DNA of 34,400 nucleotides. It comes from Gammaproteobacteria bacterium (GTDB lineage: Bacteria > Pseudomonadota > Gammaproteobacteria > Chromatiales > Chromatiaceae). The position numbers and the translations under genes are program-made. The notes below the pieces were generated by a model, which saw only the letters and a program-made list of their open reading frames with translations, was not told the DNA's origin and made no database searches. The stretch covers positions 1 to 34,400 of the forward strand of contig JASJCU010000051.1 of NCBI GenBank assembly GCA_030065815.1, written 5' to 3'. Shown piece by piece: positions 1,927 through 10,596 of the stretch; position 1 is the first letter of the stretch, and each line of letters begins with the position of its first letter.

Positions 1927-3048
1927 ATGGCCGACTCTGATTTCGATTTCTCCGCGCTGGAGACGCGACTGGGCGTCTCACGACGCACGTTTCTCAAGTT
2001 CTGTACCGGCGTCGCTGCGTCGCTCGGGCTCGGCGACCAGGCCGCCTACGCGATGGCCGAGGCCGTCGCCGACAAAAAGAAGCGCCCGCCGGTGATCTGG
2101 CTGCACGGCCAGGAATGCACCGGTCCGACCGAGGCGCTGCTGCGCTCCGAGCAGCCCAGCCTCGAACACCTGATCCTCGACCTGATCTCGCTGGATTATC
2201 ACCAGACCCTCGACGCCGGTGCCGGCCACCATGTCGAGGAGCTGAAGCGTCACGTGATGCAGGAGAACAAGGGCAAGTACCTGCTGGTCGTCGAAGGCGC
2301 GATCCCGCTCGCCCAGGACGGCATCTTCTGCAAGATCGGCGGCCAGACCATGGTCGACGCGACCCGCGAGGCCGCCGAGCACGCCGCGGCGATCGTCGCC
2401 TACGGCTCGTGCGCGAGCTGGGGCGGGGTCCAGGCCGCGTCGCCGAACCCGACCGGCGCGGTCGGTGCGCCGCAGTTCCTCACCGACAAGACCGTCGTGA
2501 CGATCCCGGGTTGCCCGCCGAACCCGGCGAACTTCATCGGCACGGTGCTGTTCTTCGTCACCTACGGCAAGCTGCCGCCGATCGACGCCAAGGGTCGGCC
2601 GAAATGGGCCTATGGCCGCCTGATACACGAGAACTGCTATCGCCGTCCGCACTTCGACGCCGGGCGCTTCGCGACCGAGTTCGGAGACGAGGGCCATCAG
2701 AAGGGCTGGTGCCTGTACAAGCTCGGCTGCAAGGGGCCGGAGACCTACAACAACTGCCCGAGCCTCGAGTTCAACAACGTCGGCGGCGGGGTCTGGCCGA
2801 TCGGCGTCGGCCACCCGTGCTTCGGCTGTTCGGAGGAGGGCACCGGTTTCAACAAGGCGCTGTTCAGCCTGTCTGATGTCAAGACCCATACCCCGCCGAA
2901 CGCCTTCCCGACCATCGATACGCGCGAAGAGACCAGCACCGCGACGGTCGCGACGGCCGCGATCGCCGGCGCCGCGGTCGGCGCGGCGCTCGGCGCCAGT
3001 GCGGTCGCCGGCGGCAAGCTCGGCAAGCGGCAGGACGAACAGGAGTAG
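1927..3048 (+). CDS. hybO: Hydrogenase-2-type [NiFe]-hydrogenase small subunit (HybO) with an altered proximal-cluster motif
   Basis: A 373-residue precursor, close to E. coli HybO in length. The N-terminus has a Tat signal (SRRTFLKFC, residues 18-26), so the folded dimer is exported to the periplasm. Electrons pass from the Ni-Fe site through three FeS clusters. The distal cluster ligands His234, Cys237, Cys262 and Cys268 are present, as are the medial ligands Cys277, Cys298 and Cys301. For the proximal cluster Cys64, Cys162 and Cys196 are present, but the second cysteine of the usual ECTGCTE motif is proline (ECTGPTE, Pro67). An Ala/Gly-rich hydrophobic tail (about 338-362) should anchor the protein in the membrane, as in HybO. 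It heads the operon; hybA follows after 6 bases. The cysteine loss takes three base changes (TGC to CCG), so it is not a simple sequencing error. Family assignment is secure; the consequence of Pro67 is unknown. Confidence 0.95.
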   Translation: MADSDFDFSALETRLGVSRRTFLKFCTGVAASLGLGDQAAYAMAEAVADKKKRPPVIWLHGQECTGPTEALLRSEQPSLEHLILDLISLDYHQTLDAGAGHHVEELKRHVMQENKGKYLLVVEGAIPLAQDGIFCKIGGQTMVDATREAAEHAAAIVAYGSCASWGGVQAASPNPTGAVGAPQFLTDKTVVTIPGCPPNPANFIGTVLFFVTYGKLPPIDAKGRPKWAYGRLIHENCYRRPHFDAGRFATEFGDEGHQKGWCLYKLGCKGPETYNNCPSLEFNNVGGGVWPIGVGHPCFGCSEEGTGFNKALFSLSDVKTHTPPNAFPTIDTREETSTATVATAAIAGAAVGAALGASAVAGGKLGKRQDEQE

Positions 3049-3054
3049 CGGGCG

Positions 3055-4032
3055 ATGGCGATGAACCGACGCGATTTTCTCAAGGCGTCGCTGGGTGGCG
3101 GCGCGGCCGCCGTCGTCAGCGGCGGTGTCGAGGCGCGGCCCAATCTCGAACCGGCGCCGCAGGCCGTGGGCATGCTGTTCGATTCGACGCTGTGCGTCGG
3201 CTGCAAGGCCTGCGTGACGGCGTGCAAGGAGGTCAACGACCTTCCGCCGACGATCGTCGGCGACGACGTGCACTACGACTCGGCACGCGACCTGTCGGCG
3301 CAGACCTTCAACGTCATCAAGGTCTACACCGACGGCCTGCAGACGACCAAGGATGCCGAGGTCGACGGCTACGCGTTCGAGAAACGCAGCTGCATGCACT
3401 GCGTCGATCCCGGCTGTGTATCGGTATGCCCGGTCACGGCGCTGATCCGCGACCCGATGACCGGCATCGTCACCTACGACGTCGATGCCTGCATCGGCTG
3501 CCGCACCTGCATGACCGGGTGTCCGTACAACGTGCCGCAGTTCGACTACGACAACCCCTGGGGCGCGTTGCACAAGTGTGAGATGTGCAACCAGAAGGGC
3601 GTCGAGCGCATCAACAAGGGCCTGATGACCGGCTGTGCCGAGGCCTGCCCGACCGGCGCCACGCTGTTCGGGTCGCGCGAGGCGCTGCTCGAAGAGGCGA
3701 AGCGGCGCGTGGCGCTGAAGCCGGGCGAAATCTACAACTACCCGCGCGGTGACGTGCGCGATCCCGACAGCTACCACGAGAAGGCGGTACCGGAATATCG
3801 CCAGCATGTCTGGGGCGAGAAAGAGGCCGGCGGCACCAACGTCATGCACGTCTCGTCGATCTCGTTCGACAAGCTCGGCATGCCGCCGCTCGGCGAACGC
3901 TCCTACGTCTCGATCTCCGAAGGCGTGCAGCACACGCTGTACAGCTACCTGGCACTGCCTGCCGTGATGCTCGGCGGCCTGACCTGGCTGGTCAAGCGCA
4001 ACACCGAAGACGACGAGGGGGACGACTCATGA
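3055..4032 (+). CDS. hybA: Hydrogenase-2-type ferredoxin subunit HybA
   Basis: A 325-residue electron-transfer subunit that carries electrons from the small subunit to the membrane partner HybB. A Tat signal (NRRDFLKASLGG, residues 4-15) directs export. Four ferredoxin-like cysteine sets follow: CVGCKACVTAC, CMHCVDPGCVSVC, CIGCRTCMTGC and CEMC paired with a later CAEAC, enough for four [4Fe-4S] clusters. A C-terminal hydrophobic segment (YLALPAVMLGGLTWLV) would tether it to the membrane, as known for HybA. The start is 3055 or the in-frame ATG at 3061. A GGAG overlapping the hybO stop precedes both. Its stop overlaps the hybB start (ATGA), indicating translational coupling. Confidence 0.95.
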   Translation: MAMNRRDFLKASLGGGAAAVVSGGVEARPNLEPAPQAVGMLFDSTLCVGCKACVTACKEVNDLPPTIVGDDVHYDSARDLSAQTFNVIKVYTDGLQTTKDAEVDGYAFEKRSCMHCVDPGCVSVCPVTALIRDPMTGIVTYDVDACIGCRTCMTGCPYNVPQFDYDNPWGALHKCEMCNQKGVERINKGLMTGCAEACPTGATLFGSREALLEEAKRRVALKPGEIYNYPRGDVRDPDSYHEKAVPEYRQHVWGEKEAGGTNVMHVSSISFDKLGMPPLGERSYVSISEGVQHTLYSYLALPAVMLGGLTWLVKRNTEDDEGDDS

Positions 4033-5183
4033 GCCACTACCAGCCGCTCGAACGCCGCGTCGTCACGGTGCCGTTCGTGATCATGGGCGTGATCGCGCTG
4101 ATCGGGATCTATTATCTGGTCGAGCGCTTCATCTACGGCATGGGCGCGGTGACCAACCTCAACGACGGTTTTCCGTGGGGGATCTGGGTCGTCTACGATA
4201 TCGTCGTCGGTACCGCGCTGGCCTGCGGCGGTTATGCGCTCGCGGTCACCGTGTACGTGTTCAACAAGGGCAGATACCACCCGCTGATGCGCCCGGCATT
4301 GCTCGCCAGCCTGCTCGGCTACGGCCTCGGCGGTATTGGCGCCGTCATCGACATGGGGCGCTGGTGGCAGTTCTACAACCTGTACCTGCCGTGGCAGATG
4401 AACTTCAACTCGGTGATGCTCGAGGTCGGCCTGTGCGTGACCGCGTACGTCATCGTGCTGGCGATCGAGTTTTCGCCGACTGTGCTCGAGAAGTTCAAGG
4501 CCGACGCGCTGCTCAAGAAGCTCAACAAGGTGCTGTTCTTCGTGATCGCGCTCGGTATCCTGCTGCCGACGATGCACCAGTCGTCGCTCGGTACGATGCT
4601 GATCGCGATGGGCTGGAAGGTCCACCCGCTGTGGCAGACCCTGCACCTGCAGCCGTTCTTCGCCGTACTGACCGCGTTCACGATGGGTTTCGCGATCGTC
4701 GTTTTCGAGGCATCGTTGTCGTCGGTCGGTTTCCGCCGTGATCCCGAGACCCACCTGCTGTCGGGTCTCGGCAAGATCATCGTCGGCCTGATCAGCGTCT
4801 ACCTGGTGTTCCGCTTCGGCGAGCTCGTGGTACGCGGCAAGCTCGGCCTGATATTCGCCGGCGATTTCGCCAGCCTGATGTTCATCATCGAGACCGCGCT
4901 GTTCGCGTATCCGCTGGCCGTGCTGTTGTCGCCACGCGGCCGGGAGAACGCGCGCTTACTGCTGTTCGCCGCGGTCAGCATGCTGCTGGCCGGCTCGCTG
5001 TACCGCTTCAATGCCTTTCTGATCACGATGGATCCGGGACCGGGATACAGCTACTTCCCGTCGCTTCCCGAGATCATGGTCACGCTCGGTCTGGTGGCCA
5101 TAGAGATCATGATATTCCTGTTCGTGGTGAAGAAGTTTCCTGTCATGCCGCGCGAAGAACGCGGTGCCCAATCGGCTGCCTGA
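4029..5183 (+). CDS. hybB: Hydrogenase-2-type integral membrane subunit HybB (NrfD/PsrC-like)
   Basis: A 384-residue polytopic membrane protein with about ten hydrophobic segments, the length and pattern of HybB in the NrfD/PsrC family. It exchanges electrons between HybA and the quinone pool. In E. coli Hyd-2 this module has no heme and can couple to proton movement. Recognisable stretches include the early DGFPWGIWVVYDIVVG and the MHQSSLGTM loop, which are typical of this family. Translation starts at the ATG overlapping the hybA stop. hybC follows after a 26-base gap containing its own AGAGGAGA ribosome site. Confidence 0.95.
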   Translation: MSHYQPLERRVVTVPFVIMGVIALIGIYYLVERFIYGMGAVTNLNDGFPWGIWVVYDIVVGTALACGGYALAVTVYVFNKGRYHPLMRPALLASLLGYGLGGIGAVIDMGRWWQFYNLYLPWQMNFNSVMLEVGLCVTAYVIVLAIEFSPTVLEKFKADALLKKLNKVLFFVIALGILLPTMHQSSLGTMLIAMGWKVHPLWQTLHLQPFFAVLTAFTMGFAIVVFEASLSSVGFRRDPETHLLSGLGKIIVGLISVYLVFRFGELVVRGKLGLIFAGDFASLMFIIETALFAYPLAVLLSPRGRENARLLLFAAVSMLLAGSLYRFNAFLITMDPGPGYSYFPSLPEIMVTLGLVAIEIMIFLFVVKKFPVMPREERGAQSAA

Positions 5184-5209: not shown

Positions 5210-6913
5210 GTGACGACACGTATCACCGTTGATCCCATTACCCGCATCGAGGGGCACCTGCGCATCGATGTCGAGGTCGATGACGGCAAGATCTCGAAGG
5301 CCTGGTCATCCGGGCAGATGTGGCGCGGCATCGAAAAGATCCTGATCGGCCGCGACCCGCGCGAGGCCTGGACATACACGCAGCGCTTCTGCGGCGTGTG
5401 CACGACCGTGCACGCCATCACGTCGGTGCGCGCGGTCGAGAACGCGCTGCAGCTCGAGGTGCCGGTCAACGCCCAGCTGGTGCGCAACATCATCCAGACC
5501 GCGCACGCGATCCAGGATCACATCGTGCACTTCTACCATCTGTCGGCGGTCGACTGGGTCGACGTCGTGTCGGCACTGGAGGCCGACCCGGTGGCGACGG
5601 CCAAGCTCGCCGAGTCGCTGTCGGACTGGCACCTGAACGGCCCGCACGAGATGAAGGCCGTGCAGGAACGCCTCAAGACCTTCGTCGGCAGCGGCCAGCT
5701 CGGACCGTTCGCCAGCGGCTACTGGGGCCACCCGGCGATGAAGCTGCCGCCCGAGGTCAACCTGCTCGGCGTCGCCCACTACATGCAGGCGCTGGACATC
5801 CAGAACAACGCCAACAAGATCGTCGCAATCCTCGGCGGCAAGAGCCCGCATATCCAGAACGTCGCGGTCGGCGGTATCAGCAACTCGATCAGTCACGACG
5901 CGCCGTCGGTGCTCAACATCGAGCGCCTGATGCTGATCAAGACCTTCATCGACAAGCTCGATCACTTCGTCAAGTCGACCTACCTGACCGACGTGCCGGC
6001 GATCGGTGCGTTCTACCTCGACTGGGCCGGTATCGGCGGCGGCGTCAACAACTACCTGACCGTGCCCGACTGCCCGCAGGACGCCAAGGGTACCGTGTTC
6101 GATCTGCCGGGTGGCTATATCGCCAACGGTGACCTCGGCAGCCTGAAACCGATCACGACGTTCAACGACGCGTATTTCCGCGACGGTGTCGCCGAGAGCT
6201 CGAAGCACGCATGGTACGAGGGTGACGCGGCATTGCACCCGTACGACGGCGAGACCGAGCCGCAGTACACCGACTTCCAGGACGACGGCAAGTACTCCTG
6301 GGTCAAGGCCCCGACCTTCTACGGCAAGCGTGCCGAAGTCGGGCCGCTGGCCGACGTACTGGTCGGTGTCGCGAGCGGCAACGAGCGCTACAAGACCTAC
6401 CTCGACCAGGCGATCAACGTCATCAAGGCGGTGTCGAAGCAATCGGAGATCCCGCTGTCGGCGATGGAATCGACGATCGGCCGGCACGCGGCGCGCGCGG
6501 TACGCTGCGCCGTCATGGTCGACACGCTCAAGGATCAGTGGCAGCGCCTCGTCGACAATGTCGGCACCGGCGATCTCGACACCTTCAACGCGCCCGAGTT
6601 CCCGAAGGGCGAAGTGCGTGGGGTCGGCTTCCACCAGGCGCCACGCGGTACGCTGTCGCACTGGATCGTGATCGAGGGCGGCAAGATCAAGAACTATCAG
6701 GCGGTCGTGCCGAGCACGTGGAATGCCGGCCCGCGCGATGCCGACGACCAGATCGGCCCCTACGAGTCGTCGCTGCTCGACAACCCGGTCGCCGATCCGG
6801 AGAAGCCGCTCGAGGTGCTGCGCACGGTGCATTCCTTCGACCCGTGCATCGCCTGCGCGATCCACCTGTTCGACAACGAACAATCCGAGATCGTCAAAGT
6901 GCGCGCGCTCTAG
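5210..6913 (+). CDS. hybC: Hydrogenase-2-type [NiFe]-hydrogenase large subunit (HybC)
   Basis: A 567-residue catalytic subunit, the same length as E. coli HybC, which splits or forms H2 at a Ni-Fe(CN)2CO centre. The N-terminal signature RFCGVCTTVH supplies Cys61 and Cys64. The C-terminal DPCIACAIH supplies Cys546 and Cys549 and ends at His552, followed by a 15-residue tail removed by the HybD protease. RIEGHLRID near the start is also a family motif. It has no signal of its own and is exported together with the HybO Tat signal. Translation starts at GTG 5210, with AGAGGAGA 7-14 bases upstream. All four nickel-binding cysteines are intact, so the enzyme looks active despite the altered small subunit. 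Confidence 0.97.
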   Translation: MTTRITVDPITRIEGHLRIDVEVDDGKISKAWSSGQMWRGIEKILIGRDPREAWTYTQRFCGVCTTVHAITSVRAVENALQLEVPVNAQLVRNIIQTAHAIQDHIVHFYHLSAVDWVDVVSALEADPVATAKLAESLSDWHLNGPHEMKAVQERLKTFVGSGQLGPFASGYWGHPAMKLPPEVNLLGVAHYMQALDIQNNANKIVAILGGKSPHIQNVAVGGISNSISHDAPSVLNIERLMLIKTFIDKLDHFVKSTYLTDVPAIGAFYLDWAGIGGGVNNYLTVPDCPQDAKGTVFDLPGGYIANGDLGSLKPITTFNDAYFRDGVAESSKHAWYEGDAALHPYDGETEPQYTDFQDDGKYSWVKAPTFYGKRAEVGPLADVLVGVASGNERYKTYLDQAINVIKAVSKQSEIPLSAMESTIGRHAARAVRCAVMVDTLKDQWQRLVDNVGTGDLDTFNAPEFPKGEVRGVGFHQAPRGTLSHWIVIEGGKIKNYQAVVPSTWNAGPRDADDQIGPYESSLLDNPVADPEKPLEVLRTVHSFDPCIACAIHLFDNEQSEIVKVRAL

Positions 6914-6940: not shown

Positions 6941-7033
6941 ATGCAGACATCACGTACCCAACCGGCAGTGCCATTGGCGGCGTTGCGCCAGTTCACGCGC
7001 TGGGTCCATGCGCGGTTCCGTCACGTAGAATGA
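6941..7033 (+). CDS. Predicted 30-residue peptide between hybC and hybD
   Basis: An ATG preceded by GCGGAGGTG (6928-6936) opens a 30-codon frame ending at 7031-7033. The stop overlaps an in-frame upstream start of hybD (ATGA at 7030-7033). The peptide is basic and amphipathic, ending in ALRQFTRWVHARFRHVE, with no membrane helix or known motif. The good ribosome site and stop/start overlap suggest it is translated. It may be a leader coupling translation to the maturation genes, a small hydrogenase-associated protein, or the remnant of a longer gene. I do not recognise a family. Confidence 0.45.
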   Translation: MQTSRTQPAVPLAALRQFTRWVHARFRHVE

Positions 7034-7068
7034 CGCGTCGCCGCCAGGGCGACTTGCGGGAGGGGCAG

Positions 7069-7629
7069 ATGCACGACATCGCGACAGGAAAACCACGCAT
7101 CCTCGTCATCGGCATGGGCAACGTGCTGATGCAGGATGAAGGCATCGGTGTACGCGCGGTCGAGGAACTCGACAGCCGCTACACGATGCCCGACCACGTT
7201 ACGCTGGTCGATGGCGGCACGACCGGCATGGAACTGTTCGAACCGATGCGCAACTGCGACTGCCTGGTCGTCGCCGACGCCGTCAACGCGAACCTGCCGT
7301 CCGGATCGCTGCTGCGCATCGCCAACGACGAGATCAACGCGTTCTTTCAGACCAAGCTGTCGAATCACCAGCTCGGCCTGTCCGACCTGCTCGCCTTGCT
7401 GACCCTGAAAGGCGAGGCACCCGGGCACATCGCGATCATCGGCATGGTGCCGGATTCGCTGGAGAATCGCCTCGGGCTGTCGGCAGCGGCCGAGGCCGGT
7501 CTGCAGGGCATGGTCGCGAGCCTGGTCGACGAGCTGCGCGGTCTGGGTGTCGATGCCGTGCCGCGCGACGCGGTCGCCGCGGGACACTGGAAGCGCCAGG
7601 CGCGACTGGAGCGCACGTCATGTGCCTAG
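7069..7629 (+). CDS. hybD: Hydrogenase maturation endopeptidase HybD
   Basis: A cytoplasmic protease that removes the C-terminal tail of the large subunit after nickel insertion. The fold motif GMGNVLMQDEGIG holds the glutamate equivalent to E. coli HybD Glu16. VVADAV holds the Asp62 equivalent and SNHQLGL the His93 equivalent, so all three metal-contacting residues are present. The start at 7069 is chosen because GGGAGGGG lies just upstream and the product (186 aa) then begins near the family's usual N-terminus. An upstream in-frame ATG at 7030 would add 13 Arg-rich residues and overlap the small ORF. It ends inside the start of the next gene. Its natural substrate is presumably HybC, and possibly the upstream HupL too. 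Confidence 0.93.
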   Translation: MHDIATGKPRILVIGMGNVLMQDEGIGVRAVEELDSRYTMPDHVTLVDGGTTGMELFEPMRNCDCLVVADAVNANLPSGSLLRIANDEINAFFQTKLSNHQLGLSDLLALLTLKGEAPGHIAIIGMVPDSLENRLGLSAAAEAGLQGMVASLVDELRGLGVDAVPRDAVAAGHWKRQARLERTSCA

Positions 7630-7904
7630 GCGTGCCGGTGCGCGTCATCGACAGCGGCAACGGCATGGCACTGTGCCGCGGCCCGAACGGCGATGAGCAC
7701 ATCAGCATGCTGCTGGTCGGCGATCAACCGCCGGGCACCTGGGTGCTGAGCCACCTCGGCTGGGCGCGCGAGGTCGTCAGCGCAGAGGACGCGGCCAACA
7801 TCACGCGTGCGCTCGAGGGTGTCAATGCGTTGATGAACGGCGCCGACGCGATCGATGTCGATCACTACTTTCCCGGGCTCGGCTCGGCGCAGGAGGCCTC
7901 ATGA
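7620..7904 (+). CDS. hybG: HypC/HybG/HupF-family hydrogenase assembly chaperone
   Basis: A 94-residue protein starting MCLGVPVRVI, the invariant HypC-family N-terminus. Its Cys2 interacts with HypD and the large-subunit precursor during delivery of the Fe(CN)2CO unit. The gene overlaps the end of hybD by 10 bases and the hybE-like gene by four, a tightly coupled maturation block. Whether it is best named HybG (Hyd-2-specific), HypC or HupF cannot be settled from sequence alone. Position in a hyb operon favours HybG/HupF. The general hypABDEF genes are absent from the window and must lie elsewhere. Confidence 0.92.
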   Translation: MCLGVPVRVIDSGNGMALCRGPNGDEHISMLLVGDQPPGTWVLSHLGWAREVVSAEDAANITRALEGVNALMNGADAIDVDHYFPGLGSAQEAS

Positions 7905-8530
7905 TCCAGGATCCGCAGGCCGCCGCGCAGGCCTTCGCCGACAGCTTCGAACAGGTGCATCAGTCGCAGATGCAGGGGCTGCCGCTGCTGAATACCCGGC
8001 TGCACGTGGAAACGCTCGGATTCCAGTCCTATCGAGACAGGGTGATCGGCATCGTCGTGACGCCATGGCTGATGAACGTCGTCATGTTGCCCGGTACCGA
8101 CGATGACTGGAGCGGCGACGAACTCGGTCACAAGCTGCCGCAGGCGTTCCCGGCCGGCAGCTACAAGTTCATGGTCAACGAGATCGACGGTATCGGTCGC
8201 TACCTGAGCCACTCGCTGTACTCGCCGATGCGCGAGTTCCAGAGCCAGAACCACGCGCTGGCTGCCGCCGAGGCGTGGCTGCGCGACGCCATGGACCCGG
8301 AGCGGGCCGACAGTGGCGACCAGGTCGACGAGGAGCTGCTCGGCAAGGTGCTGCGCGGCGAGGAGACGCCGGATATCGATCTCGACGAACTGGAGTCGAT
8401 CGCGTTCGGTCAGTCCGATGAGTCCGCGGCACGACCGGTGCGCGGCCTGCAGGATATCGGCGTGCGCGTCGAACAGCGCAGCGGCATCACGCGTCGTGAC
8501 CTGCTGCGCGGGCGGATCCGCGGCGACTGA
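7901..8530 (+). CDS. hybE: HybE/HupJ-like hydrogenase assembly chaperone
   Basis: A 209-residue protein whose first 135 residues match the HybE/HupJ pattern: a short helical start, then GFQSYRDRVIGIVVTPWLMNVVMLPG, the LPQAFPAGSYKFMVNEIDGIG stretch, and a YLSHSLYSPM segment. This family helps keep the small-subunit precursor from premature export. The C-terminal third is acidic and ends with GITRRDLLRG, a tail I associate with HupJ-type proteins. No rubredoxin cysteine pairs are present, unlike HupJ fusions that carry a rubredoxin domain. The start overlaps the preceding stop (ATGA). It is the last gene of the hyb operon. Family assignment is good; HybE versus HupJ naming is a matter of convention. 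Confidence 0.87.
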   Translation: MIQDPQAAAQAFADSFEQVHQSQMQGLPLLNTRLHVETLGFQSYRDRVIGIVVTPWLMNVVMLPGTDDDWSGDELGHKLPQAFPAGSYKFMVNEIDGIGRYLSHSLYSPMREFQSQNHALAAAEAWLRDAMDPERADSGDQVDEELLGKVLRGEETPDIDLDELESIAFGQSDESAARPVRGLQDIGVRVEQRSGITRRDLLRGRIRGD

Positions 8531-9206
8531 GCCGCGCGTTCAGCGCCACGTTGCCGTCACCACGGTTGTTCGGAACCAGGGTCGCAGCCCGTTACTTTGC
8601 CGGACCGAGCCTGTACTCGGGGGCGGCAGACGCCCACGTCGCGCGTCTGGCCAGGGTAAAGACTGCCTGCTAGCCGTCGTCTGAACGGCGTGCAGCAGAA
8701 GCGCGTGGTCAGCGAGATTCAAAAACACGTGCTGGCGGTAGCTCGAATCGTTCACACCGCGTAGCAACATCCGCGCGATCTTTTCTGCCTGCACATCGTC
8801 GAGAACCCGGTCGTCGGCGTCGAATCCGTCGCGGCAATATCAGTGCGGCGGTCGCGTGTGTCGCCGCTTCGCGGCGACGCCGGGCGGTGTGCCGGCAGCG
8901 CCTCCCGTGGCTGCGCCGTCACGGCGTGCGTCGCGGGTATCGTGGAAGCCTGGCGACCGACGACCTGGGTCGGCGCGCCGCGGCAGGTTAAGCCACCTGA
9001 TTTCTTTCTGTATTTGAATCACTTAAGCCTAGTTTCGATGGCGCCGGCCGGCTCCGCGCACGGTGGTTGAGGGTTGCGCGGCGGGCATGTCGACGGCAAT
9101 GGTGGGATCCGCGAACGGTCTGCGCGCGGTCATGCCTTTGCGAAACCGGCACGGGTTCCGCTTATACTTCCGACCTTCGAACGAAAACCGACGACATGGG
9201 GGAGTT
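8531..9206. other. Gap between hybE and the cytochrome genes
   Basis: I see no confident gene. A perfect hairpin GTCGCCGC-TTC-GCGGCGAC lies at 8860-8878 without a T tract. On the minus strand a frame is open from 8839 to 8540. Its first part reads like ordinary protein (for example DADDRVLDDVQAEKIARML) before turning into Arg/Pro-rich sequence, so it may be a gene remnant. A/T-rich sequence at about 9000-9030 and a promoter-like pair near 9138-9168 precede the first cytochrome. Confidence 0.55.
9138..9168 (+). promoter_or_regulatory. Possible sigma-70-type promoter for the cytochrome pair
   Basis: TTGCGA (9138-9143) and TATACT (9163-9168) are separated by 19 bases, 38 bases before the ATG of the first cytochrome. 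The -10 box is good; the -35 match and spacing are poor. Confidence 0.3.
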
Positions 9207-9539
9207 ATGCAGAGCTATCGCAGAGGAGGGTCGAGCGTGCTGATTGCCGCGCTGCTGTTGGCCGTCTCGTCTGCCCAGGCCTTCGAAGGAGATCCGCGAC
9301 AGGGCCGGATCAAAGCCGAGACCTGCCTGGGTTGTCACGCCATTCCGTCCTACACCAACACCTACCCGATGTATCACGTGCCGAAAGTCGGCGGGCAGAA
9401 CGAGGCGTACATCATCTCGGCATTGCTGGCCTACCGCGACGGGCAACGCGATCACGAAACCATGCACGGCAATGCGCAGGGCCTCAGCGATCAGGACATC
9501 GCCGATATCGCCGCGTATTTCTCGAGCGTCGGCAAGTAG
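9207..9539 (+). CDS. Periplasmic monoheme cytochrome c (110 aa)
   Basis: The signal peptide ends near SSAQA (residue 25). One heme-binding motif, CLGCH, is at residues 40-44, followed by a class I cytochrome c layout with MYHVPKVGGQNEAYIISAL and a C-terminal LSDQDIADIAAYFSS helix. It would carry single electrons in the periplasm. GGGGGAG directly upstream supports the ATG at 9207. It is followed after 12 bases by a second cytochrome with the same helix pattern (LSDQDLKDLAAWFAS), so the pair looks like a duplication or a two-protein relay in one operon. Placement beside hydrogenase genes is suggestive, but the partners are unknown. It resembles the cytochrome c553/c4 half-domain type. Confidence 0.93.
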   Translation: MQSYRRGGSSVLIAALLLAVSSAQAFEGDPRQGRIKAETCLGCHAIPSYTNTYPMYHVPKVGGQNEAYIISALLAYRDGQRDHETMHGNAQGLSDQDIADIAAYFSSVGK

Positions 9540-9551
9540 GTGGGTGAGCAG

Positions 9552-9887
9552 ATGAGCAGAACACGCTTTTTCGCTGCGCTGGCGGCAGTCACGCTGTCCG
9601 GTGCGGTCGTCGCTGGCGGCGACCCGGCGGCCGGCAAAGAAAAATCGGCGGTATGTGCCGGTTGCCACGGGGTCGATGGCAACTCGGTGGTCGGCGCCAA
9701 TCCGCGCCTCGCCGGTCAGTACGAGTCTTACCTGTACCAGGCCCTGACCCAGTACAAGAATGGCCAGCGCAACGATATCCTGATGGCCAATATCGTCAGG
9801 GACCTCAGCGATCAGGACCTCAAGGACCTTGCCGCCTGGTTTGCCAGCCAGGACGGCGACGTGTTGCAGGTCCTGTCCGAGGACTGA
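9552..9887 (+). CDS. Periplasmic monoheme cytochrome c, c553/c4-like (111 aa)
   Basis: A signal peptide of about 21 residues (AVVAG) is followed by GDPAAGKEKSAVCAGCHG with CAGCH at residues 35-39. The later NPRLAGQYESYLYQALTQY and LSDQDLKDLAAWFAS segments are characteristic of one c4-type domain. A methionine in ILMANIV is the likely sixth heme ligand. The ATG at 9552 gives a standard signal peptide; a GTG at 9540 would only add four residues. It is co-directional with the preceding cytochrome, is probably transcribed with it, and is followed closely by a strong palindrome. The electron donor and acceptor are unknown. Confidence 0.93.
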   Translation: MSRTRFFAALAAVTLSGAVVAGGDPAAGKEKSAVCAGCHGVDGNSVVGANPRLAGQYESYLYQALTQYKNGQRNDILMANIVRDLSDQDLKDLAAWFASQDGDVLQVLSED

Positions 9888-9909
9888 GCGCGCACGGCAG
9901 GCGAAACAT

Positions 9910-9929
9910 GGGCGGTCCATGGACCGCCC
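9910..9929. terminator. Perfect 20-base palindrome, probably a bidirectional terminator
   Basis: GGGCGGTCCATGGACCGCCC is self-complementary. It sits between the convergent ends of the monoheme cytochrome (9887) and the diheme cytochrome (9961), so it could end transcription from both sides. There is no long T tract on either flank. Confidence 0.6.
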
Positions 9930-9960
9930 TGTTGCGTCTCTGCGGCTAGCCCGCCGTGGA

Positions 9961-10596
9961 CTACTCGTACTCGATATCGGCGGCGCCGTAGAACCGTGAC
10001 AGACGCCGGATCTCGTCGTCGGTCAGCTTGTGCGACACGCTCTGCATGCGTTCGAACAGGTCGTTGCTGCGGTCGGCCTCCTTGAACTGCAGCATCGTGG
10101 TCTCGAGGTACTGACGGATCTGCCCAGCCAGGATCGGCGCGACCTCGATCTTGTTGTCTTCCTCGACAACGTCCTTCTCGTGGCAGCTGTCGCAGACCTT
10201 CATGACCAGCATCGGCTGGCCGCCGACCGCGCTGGGCCGCTCGAGGCTCTCGTACCACGCACTGATGTGGGCCATCTGCTCTTCCGAAAGCTTTCTGGCC
10301 GACTTGTACATGTCCTTGTTGACGCGGATCTTGTTCTTGAAGTCGTTGAGCTGCTTGAACAGGTACGTGGCGCGCTGCCCGGCGATGCTCGGGATCTCTT
10401 CGTCATCGCTGACGCCGTCGTCGTTATGGCACTTCTTACAGCGAAAACGCCGGGCCAGTTTCTTGCCTTCGGCCGGGTTGCCCGCGGCCACGAAGTCGAA
10501 TTTCTCCTTGGTCCACTCAAACCGCTCGCCCTCGGTGGCGACAGCGATCTGGGCAAAGCTGGCGAGCAGCACTGCCAGGGTGAGCGCGTAACGCAT
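9961..10596 (-). CDS. Periplasmic diheme cytochrome c, c4-like (211 aa)
   Basis: The signal peptide ends around IAVA (residue 20). Two heme motifs, CKKCH (53-57) and CDSCH (135-139), sit in two tandem class I domains. Each domain carries an IAGQRATYLFKQL or LAGQIRQYLETTM segment and a closing LSEEQMAHISAWY or LTDDEIRRLSRFY helix. This is the cytochrome c4 architecture, used to shuttle electrons between bc1 or other donors and terminal oxidases. A GAGGAGAACCG ribosome site precedes the ATG. It is transcribed toward the two monoheme cytochromes, which each look like half of it. Confidence 0.93.
   Translation of the reverse strand: MRYALTLAVLLASFAQIAVATEGERFEWTKEKFDFVAAGNPAEGKKLARRFRCKKCHNDDGVSDDEEIPSIAGQRATYLFKQLNDFKNKIRVNKDMYKSARKLSEEQMAHISAWYESLERPSAVGGQPMLVMKVCDSCHEKDVVEEDNKIEVAPILAGQIRQYLETTMLQFKEADRSNDLFERMQSVSHKLTDDEIRRLSRFYGAADIEYE

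Follow-up and report, generated by a model that had tools for sequence, protein, structure and literature searches.

A hyb operon with proline at a proximal-cluster position

The window, by which we mean the whole 34,400-nucleotide stretch of DNA that was analyzed, carries an operon in the order hybO-hybA-hybB-hybC-hybD-hypC-hybE. Every gene is matched by NCBIfam models, in agreement with the preliminary description, which had called the operon complete.

1927..3048, + strand: HybO-type [NiFe] hydrogenase small subunit, 373 aa, with Tat signal SRRTFLK (ORF and profile match)
3055..4032, + strand: HybA ferredoxin-like subunit (NF008134, 452.8 bits; cut-off 263)
4029..5183, + strand: HybB membrane subunit (NF008133, 528.1; cut-off 450)
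5210..6913, + strand: HybC large subunit (profile match and alignment)
7030..7629, + strand: HybD maturation protease (profile match)
7620..7904, + strand: HypC/HybG chaperone (profile match)
7901..8530, + strand: HybE assembly chaperone (profile match)

The small subunit at 1927..3048 scores 477.6 bits against TIGR00391 (cut-off 179.5), and the HybA and HybB equivalog models are both above cut-off in this operon. The hydrogenase-2 equivalog models NF007779 and NF007778 are the best matches, though their cut-offs are missed (491.5 against 659 and 853.2 against 969, respectively). The Hyb/hydrogenase-2 type is group 1c.

Codons 2116-2127 read TGC ACC GGT CCG, encoding Cys-Thr-Gly-Pro, and lie inside VIWLHGQECTGPTEALLR of ORF 1927-3048, giving the motif ECTGPTE. 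Thus, in place of the four cysteines of the proximal cluster of the Hyb/hydrogenase-2 type, this protein has three cysteines and a proline:

2116..2118, + strand: Cys64, first proximal-cluster ligand (mature Cys17), codon TGC, kept (alignment)
2125..2127, + strand: Pro67, codon CCG, replacing the second cysteine ligand of the proximal cluster (mature position 20) (ORF and alignment)
2410..2412, + strand: Cys162, proximal ligand (mature Cys115), GSC context, kept (alignment)
2512..2514, + strand: Cys196, proximal ligand (mature Cys149), GCPP context, kept (alignment)

The mature numbering of HybO is the ORF numbering minus 47, which fits C17, C20, C115, and C149 of PMC5186783.

In an alignment of HybO-type proteins comprising 62 Pro rows and 20 Cys rows, column 67 is Pro in 62/62 of the former and Cys in 20/20 of the latter, and its flanks are alike in both groups (C-T-G before, [TS]-E after). 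The substitution that the preliminary description had read at 2125-2127 is therefore borne out by both the ORF and the alignment column. We searched the same 62 Pro and 20 Cys rows for a substitute second cysteine and found none, nor any clade-specific cysteine; the sole extra cysteine close to column 67, Cys135, is invariant in the Cys rows as well (20/20). A true second proximal cysteine at some other position is thereby ruled out. The distal ligands H234, C237, C262, and C268 and the medial ligands C277, C298, and C301 are each found in 62/62 Pro rows and 20/20 Cys rows, where the distal (His and three Cys) and medial (three Cys) positions are those expected for the family. Thus, the earlier statement that the remaining proximal, distal, and medial ligands are intact holds for the Pro and Cys rows alike.

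The nickel cysteines of the large subunit are likewise intact, as had been proposed: Cys61 and Cys64 are present in 30/30 rows, as is the gate Glu14, and Cys546 and Cys549 in 29/29 rows with letters there. HybC His174, unchanged in the Pro rows, is probably the proximal-cluster histidine, judging from its GHPA context. Most oxygen-tolerant membrane-bound hydrogenases (MBH) have Glu at large-subunit position 73 (Hyd-1 numbering); the position that appears to correspond, mapped by distance to the first cysteine of CGVC, is Gln58, which is Gln in 30/30 Pro rows. Oxygen-sensitive enzymes have Gln at Hyd-1 position 73 (PMC5040170). The extra cysteines of the six-Cys [4Fe-3S] MBH (mature 19 and 120) are also absent, with Gly at both positions in 62/62 rows. 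These two glycines and HybC Gln58 together rule out oxygen tolerance of the six-Cys type.

Pro67 marks one clade of HybO proteins

We scanned one genome per species from 84,980 species for the motif Gln-Glu-Cys-Thr-Gly-Pro-x-Glu, a motif that demands Gln ahead of Glu, so that Pro variants with another residue there fall outside the count, and a scan that may omit records of the window's own genome. The scan returned 71 stretches, 63 of which are hydrogenase small subunits (some cut at a contig end, and one, L061, a 65-base stub assigned by motif context alone); the other eight are unrelated. By this motif count, the recurrence of Pro in 63 hydrogenase loci is far beyond chance. The Pro-type loci occur in gamma-, beta-, and alphaproteobacteria, and named carriers include Candidatus Thiodiazotropha, Candidatus Sedimenticola endophacoides, the Solemya velesiana symbiont, Thiothrix, Rhodoferax and other betaproteobacteria, Magnetovibrio blakemorei MV-1, Terasakiella brassicae CGMCC 1.15254, and Methylocystaceae.

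Three smaller searches, in which the column was read only in matches given a locus, placed these proteins among their relatives. Among 56 genomes (own included), Pro is found in the six best matches (74-100% identity, four genera, the window gene itself counted), encoded by differing codons; Cys is found in the two that rank next (68 and 60%) and in L015 and L016 after them (57 and 56%). In evenly drawn samples, again with the own genome included, Pro was found in 6/369 genomes of the class, 13 of the 369 having a match at E 1e-120, and in 4/398 genomes of the phylum, 12 of the 398 having a match at E 1e-110.

The partner subunits generally accompany the Pro-type gene. Among 67 related Pro loci, HybA (> 60% identity) follows the small subunit in 62, and HybA, HybB, and the large subunit are all seen in 36; most loci without all three partners reach the end of the available sequence. 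At one locus (L044:4825-6342), the C-terminal tail of a Pro-type small subunit is swapped for unrelated sequence, with no HybA within 1.4 kb, suggesting either that the operon is broken or that the assembly is chimeric there. A group 1d-type query found one small subunit only (E <= 1e-20) in 8 of 25 carrier genomes; this must then be the Pro one and must serve alone there. These 25 genomes were hand-picked from the 63 loci and are mostly drafts, and more distant hydrogenases could escape the query.

To place the Pro proteins by ancestry, we reduced 121 small subunits to 105 (62 Pro, 42 Cys, and L118, which was missed by the motif script and reads QQCTGCTE) by removing eight duplicates, L004 (the same gene as L007), and proteins of < 300 aa or < 40% identity. 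In a tree of these 105 rows made by a quick method, all 62 Pro rows fall into a single clade (SH-aLRT 99), and the clade persists after removal of eight switch columns (support 0.996). Thus, the clade of proline-bearing proteins that the preliminary description had envisaged does exist. Its sister is L013 (support 92), a Cys protein already with the HGQECTG context. In the large-subunit tree, from which L045 and L056 were dropped because they belong to a neighboring hydrogenase, the 30 Pro rows also form one group, with L131 as sister; the support of this node is 0.188 after re-rooting, and that of Pro rows plus L131 is 1.0. The genome that carries L013 and L131 (G011), the closest Cys relative, shares His60-Gly61, Glu75, and large-subunit Pro166 with the Pro clade; as read from the alignments, these residues predate the loss of the cysteine.

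Among the 62 rows, Pro67 is encoded by CCC (31), CCG (15), CCT (8), and CCA (8), and pairwise dN/dS (NG86) between the window gene and its relatives is low (0.03/0.69 with L008, 0.06/0.82 with L009, and 0.12/1.19 with L010). Since four Pro codons indicate synonymous turnover and dN/dS is low, Pro67 has been kept by selection. On this sequence evidence, the Cys-to-Pro change was fixed in one lineage and maintained by selection.

Other columns that changed with Pro67

We looked for other columns that switched completely with Pro67, defined as invariant in the Pro rows with that residue never in the Cys rows. In the small subunit, 3/367 columns did so: Pro67, Gln93, and Asp96 (63 against 19 rows), which lie no more than 30 residues apart, two sharing a loop. 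Complete switches were also found in the large subunit (3/565: Phe60, Gln96, and Gln102; 28 against 18 rows), where Phe60 adjoins the nickel ligand Cys61, and in HybA (4/317: Glu109, Thr192, Trp253, and Ala258; 53 against 19 rows); HybB had 0/376 (36 against 19 rows). The small-subunit positions of most concern here, two of them complete switches, are the following:

2203..2205, + strand: Gln93 (mature 46), Gln in 62/62 Pro rows and Glu in 20/20 Cys rows (alignment)
2212..2214, + strand: Asp96 (mature 49), Asp in 62/62 Pro rows and 0/20 Cys rows (alignment)
2293..2295, + strand: Glu123 (mature Glu76), Glu in 62/62 Pro rows; Glu in 11 and Asp in 9 Cys rows (alignment)
2863..2865, + strand: Phe313, Phe in 62/62 Pro rows; His in 18, Ala in 1, and Phe in 1 of 20 Cys rows (alignment)

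Gly98 is likewise Gly in 62/62 Pro rows, but also in 4/20 Cys rows, and less complete changes occur at Val103, Glu281, and Asn283. From the alignments, the HybO and HybC switches share the branch of the Cys-to-Pro change. This linkage alone is no proof of compensation, because HybA also has four complete switches, and its clusters sit at other points along the chain; such changes can be fixed by shared ancestry alone, and those in HybO and HybC need not be compensatory.

We compared these positions with a predicted structure of the small subunit (P0001), for which the mean pLDDT was 32.8 when it was folded alone and 59.6 with 52 sequences. In the latter model, residues 65-75, 92-98, and 229-373 are at pLDDT < 50. 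Helix 1 is predicted to start at Pro67 (within 65-75, pLDDT < 50), residues 92-98, including Asp96, form a loop after strand 2 (pLDDT < 50), and Glu123 closes strand 3. The model places Pro67, the 92-98 loop, and Glu123 at the C-terminal ends of the sheet, which would correspond to the cluster location given by PMC3591093. Foldseek ranks 1-6 are E. coli and Citrobacter hydrogenase-2; TM to target is only ~0.6, since the C-terminal part of the model failed.

The nature of the proximal cluster

The explanation that appears to fit best is a respiratory [NiFe] hydrogenase of the Hyb (Hyd-2) type that is functional and defines a clade, and whose proximal cluster would rest on three cysteines (64, 162, and 196); cluster type, potential, catalytic bias, and O2 response may all have changed. 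The two possibilities that had been raised from the sequence, three cysteines with another ligand or a 3Fe cluster, remain the right pair of hypotheses.

By analogy with known enzymes, we give an even chance to a three-Cys [3Fe-4S] proximal cluster from which Fe4 has been lost. Fe4 is the iron held by Cys20 (PMC5811149, PMC10583674), and without the Cys20 thiolate it would be lost, leaving [3Fe-4S] in place of [4Fe-4S]. The proximal cluster of Huc is [3Fe-4S], and [3Fe-4S] lies ~250 mV higher than [4Fe-4S] (PMC10017518); the proximal cluster would then be higher by roughly that amount, giving a relay of higher potential. Proximal and medial high-potential clusters in series might pull electrons from Ni-Fe to HybA/HybB and quinone, an arrangement that would favor H2 oxidation and lower the risk of over-reduction. 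Near the altered cluster, charge and protons may be rebalanced by Gln in place of Glu46 together with the newly gained Asp49. Presumably it is this small-subunit residue that is meant by the Glu46 of a proposed proton route (PMC3325256).

The mutation C12P of Nostoc HupS is presumably at the first, not the second, proximal cysteine. It is listed in PMC9919214 and is probably from the same work as the Nostoc HupSL variant in which the proximal Fe4S4 was replaced by Fe3S4 (PMC5040170). Cells with the latter variant made more H2, and thus the variant stays live; for the same reason, a simple oxidation-only reading is disfavored. Moreover, the medial [3Fe-4S] of the family has Pro at its fourth place, and an Alteromonas enzyme remains active with Asp or Asn for the second proximal cysteine, residues that are natural there in other enzymes (PMC4070099).

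The proximal cluster may instead stay [4Fe-4S], held by three cysteines and a carboxylate (Glu123 or Asp96) or solvent, and this we consider a serious contender, if short of an even chance. Indeed, the invariant Glu123, a candidate fourth ligand of the proximal cluster, and the new invariant Asp96, a candidate substitute ligand or charge partner, fit a carboxylate-ligated [4Fe-4S] at least as well as a 3Fe cluster. Glu76 (mature numbering) adjoins Fe4 and can bind it in Hyd-1/MBH (PMC5811149, PMC10583674), and its carboxylate was modeled bonded to Fe4 in oxidized Hyd-1 crystals (PMC5811149). The proximal cluster of FrhG has three cysteines and Asp60 (PMC3930138). Cyanobacterial (Nostoc) HupS, with three cysteines and Asn, is reported to have [4Fe-4S] (PMC6616624), so that loss of the cysteine need not remove an iron. 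Against a carboxylate ligand, Glu123 is not specific to the clade (11/20 Cys rows have it), Asp96 sits in the low-confidence 92-98 loop of the model, and precedents for Cys-to-Pro point to 3Fe clusters.

An improbable reading is that Pro67 is neutral or structural, with the cluster little affected and mainly assembly or stability altered. In the model, Pro67 opens a helix (in a stretch of pLDDT < 50), where a proline would be easily accommodated, and HybA has complete switches too, at a distance from the cluster. Yet a cluster ligand has been lost, and Pro is invariant (62/62) in a clade spanning three classes. The odds of gene decay or of an error in sequencing or assembly are negligible, even for a window from a fragmented assembly (172 contigs): the same residue recurs in independent genomes of three classes in four codons, the operon and other ligands are intact, and dN/dS is low, which rules out both the read error and the decay that the preliminary description had argued against.

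If the three-Cys [3Fe-4S] cluster is correct, a broader proposal can be made, one that we advance tentatively and think rather unlikely as a whole. A Hyd-2-like lineage would have acquired two [3Fe-4S] clusters in series through the Cys-to-Pro change and fixed second-shell changes (Gln46 and Asp49 in HybO; Phe60, Gln96, and Gln102 in HybC), an independent route, parallel to that of Huc, to an enzyme of high potential, biased to oxidation and perhaps resistant to oxygen. The four complete switches in HybA weaken the idea that the linked changes compensate for one another and make this proposal slightly less likely, and the neutral explanation slightly likelier. Were the proposal true, a reversible low-potential respiratory hydrogenase would have been turned into an oxidation-biased one, used by sulfur-oxidizing and other proteobacteria.

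Relation to known enzymes

The best PDB relatives by both sequence and Foldseek are the hydrogenase-2 enzymes (HybO-HybA-HybB-HybC) of E. coli and Citrobacter (6ehq and 5xvb), which the window enzyme resembles in its operon, as matched by NCBIfam models, and in its distal and medial ligands. The 5xvb and 6gam chains have Cys at the column, Glu at mature 46, Ser at 49, Asp at 76, and His opposite Phe313; at these positions, the window protein has Pro, Gln, Asp, Glu, and Phe.

Other hydrogenases resemble it at the proximal cluster. Huc, the high-affinity hydrogenase of Mycobacterium smegmatis, has unusual fourth coordination at its proximal [3Fe-4S] (PMC10017518), but is distant in sequence (7utd, E 9.5e-25, compared to 1.1e-128 for 5xvb), has all three clusters 3Fe, and is built with HucM. 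In Nostoc punctiforme HupS, one proximal cysteine was lost naturally, with Asn at proximal position 2 (PMC4070099, PMC6616624), and an engineered proximal Fe3S4 leaves a live enzyme (PMC5040170; C12P in PMC9919214); this is, however, a group 2a enzyme (PMC5186783), its natural residue is Asn, and C12P is man-made. The F420-reducing hydrogenase subunit FrhG also has three cysteines and a non-Cys residue at the proximal cluster, but there Asp60 serves as a ligand of a [4Fe-4S] cluster (PMC3591093, PMC3930138). The oxygen-tolerant MBH Hyd-1 and HoxK ([4Fe-3S], six Cys) are altered at the proximal site too, but gained two cysteines where the window enzyme lost one. Their Cys20 amide switch needs an N-H (PMC5811149), which Pro does not have, so this amide-to-Fe4 switch would be impossible here. 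With Pro67 providing no N-H and Gln58 as in oxygen-sensitive enzymes, any oxygen resistance would have to be of another kind, for example as in Huc.

Our search of open-license PubMed Central papers found no description of a proximal Pro or of the motif. The natural substitutions at the second proximal cysteine in the part of the table by Yonemoto et al. that we consulted are Asp and Asn, entries of several members each, and Pro is absent from it (PMC4070099); the consulted text on Thiodiazotropha hydrogenases covers hyaABC and hoxCB, with nothing on a proximal Pro (PMC11171427). We regard the Pro-type HybO, of Hyb type by its operon and sequence, as a new, naturally occurring variant within a known enzyme family.

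Catalytic bias and the response to oxygen are considered to be set by the cluster adjoining the Ni-Fe site. Nature has in effect run a single-ligand experiment like the Nostoc one, and the result was retained across three bacterial classes. Structures have been solved for the family and E. coli offers a model enzyme; the role of the proximal fourth ligand is thus testable by a few swaps in Hyd-2, and the Pro-type enzyme itself is carried by named strains (M. blakemorei MV-1 and T. brassicae CGMCC 1.15254). One genome (G408) has both a Pro-type and a Cys-type HybO (L120 and L130), a natural side-by-side comparison.

Genomic setting of the window

In the window genome (3.89 Mb, 172 contigs), a [NiFe] small-subunit C-terminal domain occurs at six places; the hydrogenase contigs are C24, C28, C61, C95, and C151. 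The five other small subunits all have Cys at this place (ECTGC, ECTCC, ECTGC, ACSGC, and GCGGC), and Pro is thus specific to the window operon within this genome. A cytochrome b561-type hydrogenase subunit (PF01292) is encoded at 520-1143 of the window and ends just upstream of hybO. In a congener (G008), locus L151 (G008:C67:23800-29800) has a small subunit with ECTCCTE, a long ORF at the place of the large subunit, a cytochrome b, and then a Pro-type gene; to judge from these genes, a six-Cys oxygen-tolerant hydrogenase operon lies directly ahead of the Pro-type operon there. Downstream of the window operon, at 9165-10596, are three small c-type cytochrome genes, two on the + strand and one on the - strand.
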